From Sulfurimonas sp. HSL-1716 (GTDB lineage Bacteria; Campylobacterota; Campylobacteria; Campylobacterales; Sulfurimonadaceae): 64,000 bases of DNA. The notes under the pieces are model-generated. The model was not told the DNA's origin. It searched no databases and saw nothing but the letters and a program-made list of their open reading frames with translations. Each line of letters opens with the position of its first letter. The stretch's first letter is position 1. Where the stretch lies: the NCBI RefSeq assembly GCF_039645975.1, contig NZ_CP147918.1, positions 1,612,001 to 1,676,000 of the forward strand, given 5' to 3'. The position numbers and the translations under genes were made by a program. Shown here piece after piece: positions 6,783 to 47,800 of the stretch.

Positions 6783-6808
6783 TTACATGTAAGAATTCTT
6801 ACATGTAA
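6783..6808. repeat. Perfect 26-bp palindrome
   Basis: The half-site TTACATGTAAGAA is followed directly by its exact reverse complement, and each arm holds the self-complementary word TTACATGTAA. It lies between the convergent ends of yqeY and the orphan gene at 6811-7215. It may act as a bidirectional terminator, a protein-binding site or the edge of an insertion. Related words recur at 7285-7296, 7700-7709, 25712-25721 and, in modified form, 34982-35006. Confidence 0.85.
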
Positions 6809-6810
6809 TC

Positions 6811-7215
6811 TTATCTAACATCTATGTATGTAAAGTCTTTGTATGTGAGATTTGTTTTGCCTTTTAAATCTTTTCTCATTGATAGAACAATATTACCTAT
6901 TGCTTTTCTTCCTTCTTCAAGATCTGGATTATTTCCTTTTGAATCAATGACAAGCTTTATCATTTTATTGACTGCTAAAACAACTTCATCTGAACTATAA
7001 ATCCACGAACGATATTGTTCTTCAAAAAATTTACGTTTTGTTTCAGTTGTTGCTGTTAAGCCTACAAACCCTTGTAATAAAACTAAAAGATTTGCATACT
7101 TTTCTTCTTTATACTTTAAAATAGCTTCTTCACGTTTTGAACGACTTGTAAAAAAATATGTAAGATACGAACCTACTATTGCAGTAAAAATAGGTAAAAG
7201 AGTATTTATTTCCAT
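6811..7215 (-). CDS. Orphan membrane-anchored protein, AT-rich
   Basis: A 134-residue protein that I do not recognise as a named family. Residues about 5-23 form one hydrophobic helix, then comes a basic stretch (SRSKREEAILKYKEEKY) and a soluble helical body. That layout suggests an N-terminal anchor with the rest in the cytoplasm. The gene is visibly poorer in G and C than its neighbours. It is bracketed by the palindrome at 6783-6808 and the dispersed repeat at 7309-7691, which suggests acquired DNA. Small proteins with this architecture are frequent in genomic islands. Function unknown. Confidence 0.6.
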   Translation of the reverse strand: MEINTLLPIFTAIVGSYLTYFFTSRSKREEAILKYKEEKYANLLVLLQGFVGLTATTETKRKFFEEQYRSWIYSSDEVVLAVNKMIKLVIDSKGNNPDLEEGRKAIGNIVLSMRKDLKGKTNLTYKDFTYIDVR

Positions 7216-7284: not shown

Positions 7285-7709
7285 TTTACATGTAAACAAC
7301 TACTCCATACTTTTTGTCCGCAAAAAGTAAGCAAAAACTCTGCAACGGCTTCGAGCTCGCCATAGGCGAGTTCCCAAGAAAGAGCAAATCCATTCCTAAA
7401 AATGCAAAACTCACTTCGTTCAAACACGTTGCATTTTCTTTACGTCATTACTTTACTATTTCTTGGCTCTGCAGATGTTGCACCGACGTGGCAATTGTAT
7501 CGGCTGTTTTGTGTCACTTTGGATTTTAGTCTTTTTGACCGAGAGCAAGCGTGAAAAAAATCAAACTGTTTGAGGAAGTGTGCGACCGAGTTTTTGATTT
7601 TTAGCTGGAACGACCGAAAAAAGGCGTTAAAAAATCCAACTCGTGACACAAGCTTTTTTGCATACTTTTTTTGCGATAAAAAAAAGTATGCGAGAAGTCT
7701 TACATATAA
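7285..7709. repeat. Dispersed structured repeat, copy A (fills a 512-bp gene-free gap)
   Basis: The stretch 7216-7727 holds no convincing gene. Within it 7309-7500 aligns almost base for base with 25736-25915. Order from the left: TTTACATGTAAA (7285-7296); an 8-bp hairpin with TCCG loop (7309-7328); a hairpin with 6 Watson-Crick pairs and loop ATA (7356-7370); an AAATGCAA / TTGCATTT inverted pair around 7400-7436; then a stretch unlike copy B; and a 13-bp hairpin GCATACTTTTTTT / AAAAAAAGTATGC (7660-7691). Short open frames inside are by-products of the repeat. It could be a non-autonomous mobile element or a structured RNA. Confidence 0.8.
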
Positions 7710-25711: not shown

Positions 25712-26051
25712 TTACATGTAAGCTTTTTCTTTCATACTTTTTGTCCGCAAAAAGTAAGCAAAAACTCTGCAACGGCTTCGAGCCTAACTTCGTTAGGTTC
25801 CTAAAAAATAGTAACTCCATTCCTAAAAATGCAAAACTCACTTCGTTCAAACAGTTGCATTTTCTTTACGTTATTCCGTTTCGATTTCTTAGCTCTGTAG
25901 ATGTTGCACAGTCGAATAAACTATTATGACTTTTATTGCAAAACGCTTGACATTAACCGAATCGTTTCGCTTAGCTTTTTATCCCCGAAAAAGGTTGTAG
26001 CCGTCTCTAATCGAAAAAAAAGATTTTTGGTTACTTTTATAAAAAAGTGAC
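25712..26051. repeat. Dispersed structured repeat, copy B (in a 436-bp gene-free gap)
   Basis: The stretch 25707-26142, between the EEP gene and 5S rRNA, holds no gene I can support. It carries TTACATGTAA (25712-25721), an 8-bp hairpin with TCCG loop (25736-25755), a hairpin CCTAAC / GTTAGG with loop TTC (25783-25797), an AAATGCAA / TTGCATTT inverted pair near 25828-25863, and a right-end hairpin of nine pairs (26030-26051). The left 180 bases match copy A at 7309-7500 in the same orientation. The right halves share little beyond the terminal hairpin. Confidence 0.8.
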
Positions 26052-46717: not shown

Positions 46718-47800
46718 GTGCTGGTTCATATCTGCTGTTCTGTTGACAGCCACTTTTTTTTAGAGAAACTGCAGCGCGATTTTCCCGAAGAAAAACTCAC
46801 CGGCTTTTTTTACGATCCCAACATCCATCCCTACTCCGAATACCGTCTGCGCTATCTGGACGTAAAGCGTTCCTGCAAAAAACTCGGCATTCCTCTTTTG
46901 GAAGGCGAATACGATTACGAAAATTGGATGGAAGCCGTGCGGGGTCTTGAAAGAGAACCTGAAAAAGGCAAACGCTGCGAAGTCTGTTTTGACAAACGCT
47001 TTGAGGTAAGTGCGCAAAAAGCGCTTGAACTCGGCGAAAAAAAGATGACGACAACACTTTTGGTCAGTCCGCTCAAATCTCAAGAACAGCTCAAACGCGT
47101 CGGCGACGAGTTTTACAGAAAAAACGGCGTGGAATTCATTGCCGTAGATTACAGAAGCGGCGGCGGCACGCAGGATCAAGCCAAAGTGACAAAAGAAGAA
47201 CAGCTTTACCGACAGGACTACTGCGGATGTATCTACGGTCTTACCATGCAAAGAGAGTCTCAGGACAAACTGATGGACGAGATGTTCTCTCCTATCTCAA
47301 ATACCGTCTTGCCCGCTTCCATCGAAGAGAGGCTCTCTCTTTACGAAACTAGAATGAGACTCGAAGACGAAGGCAGAAAATACAGGATACAAAAGCATAA
47401 GTTCTTAAACTACAGGCAGTTTACATGTAAACTTACTGTAGACAAATCTATACCCGTTGCAGCTTACGCACTCTCCTACTCGATACTGCAAAGAAAAAAA
47501 GCCGAAGGCAGGATAGAGACAGAGATAGAGGGAATTCACTATTTTAACCGCGAAGAGATACGCTTTATCTCGTTACAAAAGTTCAACCTCCTTGCAGACA
47601 GGGACTACTTATCCGTTAAAGAACTGATATACAGTCCGTTAGCATACGAGGATGAAGTCGCTTTAAGGATCAAAATCACCAAAAGCATCTACGATTTGAC
47701 ACCTATCATCGTCGTCGACGAGATACCGCAAGGGAAACTTTCTTTAGTTCTTGACGCAAAGATATATGAAGATACAAAAGATAAGATAATCGAAATTTAA
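46718..47800 (+). CDS. queH: Epoxyqueuosine reductase QueH, long form
   Basis: Reduces epoxyqueuosine in tRNA, the last step of queuosine synthesis in organisms without QueG. Iron-sulfur and catalytic cysteines are visible: HICCSVD near residue 5, GKRCEVCF near 90 and DYCGCIYGL near 168. The body to about residue 190 matches QueH (DUF208). A further 170 residues form an extra C-terminal domain without a motif I recognise. It starts at GTG 46718 behind a strong AGAAGGAGA ribosome-binding site. Confidence 0.88.
   Translation: MLVHICCSVDSHFFLEKLQRDFPEEKLTGFFYDPNIHPYSEYRLRYLDVKRSCKKLGIPLLEGEYDYENWMEAVRGLEREPEKGKRCEVCFDKRFEVSAQKALELGEKKMTTTLLVSPLKSQEQLKRVGDEFYRKNGVEFIAVDYRSGGGTQDQAKVTKEEQLYRQDYCGCIYGLTMQRESQDKLMDEMFSPISNTVLPASIEERLSLYETRMRLEDEGRKYRIQKHKFLNYRQFTCKLTVDKSIPVAAYALSYSILQRKKAEGRIETEIEGIHYFNREEIRFISLQKFNLLADRDYLSVKELIYSPLAYEDEVALRIKITKSIYDLTPIIVVDEIPQGKLSLVLDAKIYEDTKDKIIEI

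Follow-up and report, generated by a model that had tools for sequence, protein, structure and literature searches.

The stretch of DNA analysed here (the window) comprises 64,000 nucleotides of the genome of Sulfurimonas sp. HSL-1716, labelled G000, and carries two copies of a structured element whose parts are collected in Table 1. In agreement with the preliminary description, the element contains no likely gene: with gene calls made as simple ORFs, no reading frame of at least 100 aa lies inside the copies. The accessory ORF that lies beside copy 1 finds no match in six relatives of the genus.

Table 1. Parts of the two element copies, and the neighbouring accessory reading frame, in window coordinates
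Feature	Position	Strand	Composition or basis
Copy 1, arm A	7306..7483	+	Outer hairpin, variable hairpin, core, closing GGCTCTGCAGATGTTGCA; genus-arm alignment and genome copies
Copy 1 arm A, outer T/A-rich hairpin	7308..7329	+	TACTTTTTG / CAAAAAGTA
Copy 1, variable 6-bp hairpin	7356..7370	+	CTCGCC-ATA-GGCGAG; stem halves 7356-7361 / 7365-7370
Copy 1 arm A, core	7399..7437	+	AAACTC-ACTTCGT-TCAAACA inside stem AAAATGCAA / TTGCATTTT; model R1 match
Copy 1, arm B (inverted)	7509..7691	-	Alignment
Copy 1 arm B, core	7549-7606	-	Model R1 match G000:1619549-1619606
Copy 1 arm B, outer hairpin	7660..7691	-	GCATACTTTTTTT / AAAAAAAGTATGC
Copy 2, arm A	25734..25909	+	Genome copies and genus-arm alignment
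Copy 2 arm A, outer hairpin	25735-25756		
Copy 2, variable hairpin	25783..25797	+	CCTAAC-TTC-GTTAGG; stem halves 25783-25788 / 25792-25797
Copy 2, core	25821..25871	+	Model R1 match, E 2.6e-12
Copy 2, right-end outer hairpin	26030..26051	-	Remainder of right arm degenerate
Accessory ORF, 134 aa, beside copy 1, outside the element proper	6811..7215	-	Weak tm_HEPN match

The compensatory change first noticed at the variable hairpin is exact, as four of its six pairs differ between copies 1 and 2 with pairing preserved. The two copies are real, although the near-identity ascribed to their left halves outside this one hairpin does not hold: they are about 85% identical, and other stems differ too. 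Likewise, the outer hairpins are present at all four ends, while the right halves are not alike, copy 1 ending in a B-type arm and copy 2 in a degenerate one that retains the outer hairpin alone. When folding was compared with 200 shuffles, arm A of copy 1 performed better than all 200 (DNA z -3.95), whereas copy 2 as a whole did not outperform all of its shuffles (z -0.93); copy 2 is thus partly decayed. The word TTACATGTAA, thought to begin each copy, does abut the element in two of its five window occurrences, but it is not specific to it: of the 17 genomic occurrences of the 12-mer TTTACATGTAAG, most lie away from the element. On these window and genome counts it was rejected as a part of the element and is regarded as a separate, abundant genome motif or palindrome. 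Such palindromes lie at window positions 6783-6808, 7286-7295, 25712-25721 and 47421-47430, with five occurrences of TTACATGTAA in 64 kb against 0.04 expected; at times doubled around GAATTC, they form an intergenic motif of their own in this genus.

The family is neither limited to the window pair nor devoid of covariation in relatives. A genome search retrieves six copies in G000, with a best non-self E of 1.5e-58, well beyond chance, and four of six genus relatives hold 3-9 matches each. The copies in G000 are old, being about 80-86% alike, and any present-day activity there would be putative. The anatomy of the element was derived from an alignment of 30 arms from five genomes of the genus. 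In general, a full copy is built from two structured arms, A and B, that face inward; each has a core hairpin of the form stem-AAACTC-(variable hairpin)-TCAAACAG-stem' and, on its outer side, a T/A-rich hairpin. Specifically, arm A reads as an outer hairpin TACTTTTT..AAAAAGTA, CAAAAA, TGCAACGGCTTCGAG and the variable 6-bp hairpin, followed by a long interrupted stem, the core stem around AAAACTC-[variable apical hairpin]-TCAAACAG and the return to GGCTCTGCAGATGTTGCA. Arm B has the outer hairpin and core in common with arm A, and its outer stems differ (GTGTCAC..GTTGGATTT / AAAATCCAA..GTGACAC). Within the genus, the variable hairpin exists as a handful of stem alleles, every one perfectly paired, that combine differently with the core and apical alleles. 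The arms are modular, since in some copies (L045, L046, L095) an extra module, AACAAGCGAAGCGCTCNC..GATGTTTCC, separates the arm from its outer hairpin.

The core extends far beyond the genus. A scan of public genomes with AAACTCRCTNCGYTCAAACAG found a version of it, 21 bases long, in no fewer than 119 stretches, and about eight phyla are represented among the matches listed, with assignments taken from the record titles: Bacteroidota, Bacillota, Pseudomonadota, Desulfobacterota-type, Nitrospirota, Campylobacterota, Patescibacteria and Gastranaerophilales. Plasmid and phage collections returned short stretches only, and viral contigs, with two core-bearing stretches in the same scan, are nearly empty, so the element is not a typical phage feature. 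The flanks of the motif are almost never the same (87 distinct 6-mers were counted 5' of it), and at least seven consecutive Watson-Crick pairs nevertheless surround it in 73% of 126 matches, against about 0.7% with the flanks swapped. In a gap-free alignment of these regions (A3, 65 x 51), all nine outer stem pairs show changes on both sides, and the covariation score is 0.723 against 0.171 for shuffled and at most 0.298 for slid alignments; the rows of A3 were picked for at least six pairs, and the unselected 73% is the fairer figure. The apical loop is TNC, which reads cGNAg on the opposite strand, a very stable DNA mini-hairpin; it was given no weight as evidence, and loop statistics are biased here, as the scan pattern fixed this loop in most copies.

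A covariance model, whose E-values are rough, was positive in 10 of 200 Campylobacterota genomes and counted from 1 to 140 copies per genome in the 32 genomes holding scanned loci. In one Pasteurellaceae and one Bacteroides genome, cores are paired in inverted orientation at a spacing of 210-300 bp, and a T/A-rich hairpin marks either outer end, the same layout as in the window; other hosts carry arms singly. The outer-hairpin loop is in many hosts complementary to a segment just downstream, which gives an H-type pseudoknot (CTTGAT/ATCAAG, CTTGAA/TTCAAG, CGTCGC/GGCGAC); this loop-to-downstream pairing reaches at least five pairs in 24% of cases against 6% in the control. The literature searched, mainly openly accessible papers, contained no description of the core sequence. 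Two further arrangements were observed: tandem copies with long AAAGAC-type microsatellites between them in Alkalibaculum sporogenes (L291, L292), and a core placed inside units bounded by AACATGAGTCATCCCGAA inverted repeats in Arcicella rosea (L289, L290).

The idea of a family of mobile structured repeats is borne out by the many copies in many phyla, the strong covariation and the presence or absence of the element at orthologous sites. Flammeovirga sp. EKP202 carries 18 copies that have the same core and are located between unrelated genes, and two of these filled sites are without the element in the sister species OC4, as sought in a comparison for empty sites; this comparison is between species, so loss of the element there is possible. 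Terminal inverted repeats are found in Flammeovirga and Arcicella copies, and the Flammeovirga copies show no clear or exact target-site duplication. Within Sulfurimonas, the yadS-argJ site holds an arm and an AbiH gene in G000, a remnant of the outer hairpin alone in G016 and neither in G038; at the yadS site of G046 (L101 971-3464) two ORFs resemble Tn7-type TnsA/TnsB by eye. Between icd and dedA, G000 carries an arm, a TIGR04255 gene and neighbours, G052 a truncated arm, and G038 and G046 no core, while the two arms of G016 (L044 1021-2305), in inverted orientation, enclose an ORF of about 263 aa in which an HNH-like CxxC..SxEHVPPK motif was recognised by eye and for which Pfam, NCBIfam and PADLOC have no match. 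For five of the six G000 copies a flank is wholly or mostly without match in six genus relatives, compared with two of ten control intergenic regions, both beside one gene. In this small sample, the element tends to mark the junctions of small accessory, often defence-like, islets in the genus. The notion that the accessory cassette always sits inside two arms was dropped, as it is inside in L044 and L011 and outside in L008, L009, L010 and the window copy.

Taken together, the window feature probably belongs to a large and apparently hitherto undescribed family of DNA elements that are dispersed, non-coding, non-autonomous and hairpin-forming, similar to MITE, REP and box C repeats. The unit of this family is a single structured arm or a pair of arms facing inward, with the conserved core present in each. 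Against a mobile element speak the absence of a linked transposase, Y1 enzymes having been searched for, and of exact target duplications. The first of these points would suit old hairpin-prone repeats with no dedicated mobility, spread and changed only by template switching in host replication, gene conversion between copies and recombination during gene transfer. Such an origin would also fit the mosaic alleles shuffled among copies, the remnants and truncations at orthologous sites and the precedent of PIT/box C loci, hypervariable without mobility genes (PMC4666352). It is nonetheless rather unlikely, given that some genomes hold 50-140 similar copies at sites unrelated to one another, that the ends of the element are constant in Anaerocolumna and that the same unpaired core is kept across phyla.

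The pairing itself is of a kind expected of DNA. In the core stems, G-U accounts for 8 and A-C for 15 of 1384 pairs (173 copies, eight pairs each), that is 0.6% G-U, against 25 of 306 pairs (8.2%) and no A-C in tRNA stems at the same loci; a test of wobble asymmetry for the functional strand gave 11 versus 17, with neither strand clearly favoured. Many G-U intermediates would be expected from stepwise compensation under RNA selection. The Anaerocolumna element forms, as a whole, one hairpin of about 250 bp. Over 16 copies, about 4 of the 512 pairs in its outer 32-bp stem are mismatched, whereas between copies one and the same arm diverges by 16% (median) and at most 75%, one mis-registered copy having been left out. 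Since G-U pairs are nearly absent and the arms of a copy are near-identical while copies diverge, the structure is kept as DNA. Of the two explanations first offered for the covarying hairpin, selection of a fold or maintenance by copying, these observations support copying better than a selected RNA fold. Arm-to-arm copying is known from quasi-palindrome correction in bacteria, and it probably maintains the DNA structure here; arm identity could also come from strong selection for perfect DNA pairing. As the unpaired core survives such copying, it is presumably selected as a recognition site.

The same figures make it improbable that the element is a structured non-coding RNA or 3'-UTR element, such as a terminator, an sRNA or an RNA-protein scaffold, with its stems under selection for an RNA fold. 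The conserved internal loop and the pseudoknot pairing would suit an RNA, as would the neighbouring genes, which across phyla are convergent in 28 cases and divergent in 9. This tendency is absent in Anaerocolumna, and a main role at transcript ends, as once proposed, is not supported. Moreover, across phyla there is no preferred orientation relative to co-directional genes (24 to 22), and Rfam, at gathering and relaxed thresholds, has no covariance model matching the element.

In Anaerocolumna, where dnaA and GC skew confirmed the positions of origin and terminus, 38 of 54 cores are directed against the replication fork (38 to 16, p 0.004), as are 19 of the 23 best matches. The left neighbour gene is directed away from the element for 17 of 20 copies in Anaerocolumna sp. 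AGMB13025 (L388-L407); in many of them it starts at a distance of about 200 bp from the core, and this 5'-side preference is unseen in other phyla. As 84% of Anaerocolumna genes are co-oriented with the fork and 17 of these 20 left genes point away, the fork bias is confounded, and replication is inseparable from gene context. A REP-type element moved by a Y1 transposase (RAYT or IS200-like) acting on a lagging-strand hairpin would account for hairpin DNA, inverted pairs, intergenic location and this fork bias, but it is very improbable, and a Y1/RAYT enzyme was set aside as the mobiliser, because Y1_Tnp is missing from G000 and from the high-copy genomes G251 (38 copies), G255 (31), G267 (34) and G264 (a complete Anaerocolumna genome, 45-54), and the core lies near just 2 of 30 Y1 loci examined.

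For the non-autonomous DNA element favoured here, a mechanism can be proposed. The element would act as folded single-stranded or extruded DNA, its arms being re-copied from each other by template switching or hairpin-directed repair, possibly through snap-back synthesis during movement. The unpaired core motif would serve as the recognition site of a trans-acting enzyme that moves the element, and recombination between copies may help to swap the small accessory gene islets at these sites. A bolder form of this proposal, to be entertained tentatively, is a new class of protein-less mobile DNA present across bacterial phyla: it would move as a folded single strand recognised via the apical AAACTC/TCAAACAG core, and snap-back copying would regenerate its arms, leaving the stem sequence free while the structure is inherited.

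Among known repeats, the PIT, box C or TM_ECO elements of E. coli (Hoyne 2000; Holder 2015, PMC4666352) are intergenic, lie in variable loci and form triplexes as isolated single strands (PMC4666352). The present element resembles them in being intergenic, dispersed, non-coding and present in many copies, in having a pyrimidine-rich hairpin followed by a purine-rich strand at its outer ends and in occupying loci more variable than controls; intergenic inverted pairs of A and B types, as in E. coli (PMC4666352), were looked for and found. It differs in that the E. coli pairs measure about 85 bp and are G/C-rich, whereas the present element spans 250-450 bp with mostly A/T-rich ends, a conserved core and further covarying stems; four E. 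coli loci examined are without the AAACTC/TCAAACAG core. Moreover, the consensus CCCTCNCCC N3-6 GGGNGAGGG N3 GGGNGAGGG does not fit the outer hairpins of the window, which are TACTTTTT/AAAAAGTA-like. In a mirror-repeat test for intrastrand triplex, the mirror was longer in 14 and the direct repeat in 8 informative cases (p 0.29), which no more than suggests the mirror-symmetric purine third strand expected of a triplex. A possibility is that the element is a kind of its own.

With REP, BIME and REPIN sequences and their RAYT it shares short intergenic palindromes, often in inverted pairs, in many copies and non-autonomous; unlike these, it is longer and more complex, its unit going far beyond 40 bp (a REP palindrome has 20-40 bp and a GTAG/GGAG or CGTC tag at its foot), and several high-copy genomes do not need a RAYT. 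As in MITEs, the copies are dispersed and gene-free, and terminal inverted repeats or inverted arms as well as filled and empty sites were tested for and found; MITEs derive from a parent insertion sequence and have a target duplication; no such parent was seen at the loci examined, and the Flammeovirga copies show no clear duplication. The present element also conserves an internal core structure across phyla and not its ends. Finally, MRSC-65-2 (PMC11109978), the only member compared of a class with 250 other mobile or repeat sequence candidates, is similar in its many copies and phyla, its covarying stem and its possible action as DNA, and differs, by its description, in being one long stem with a UYCCGG repeat and not the present motif (PMC11109978).

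A 21-base core with exchangeable paired stems thus spans Campylobacterota, Bacteroidota, Bacillota and Pseudomonadota, and is found neither in Rfam nor in the literature searched. If the element acts as DNA, it would document how hairpin-templated copying proceeds naturally in bacterial chromosomes and offer a handle on a recombinase or repair process. In addition, it could tie the PIT/box C repeats, long unexplained, and their hypervariable loci to a broader family.
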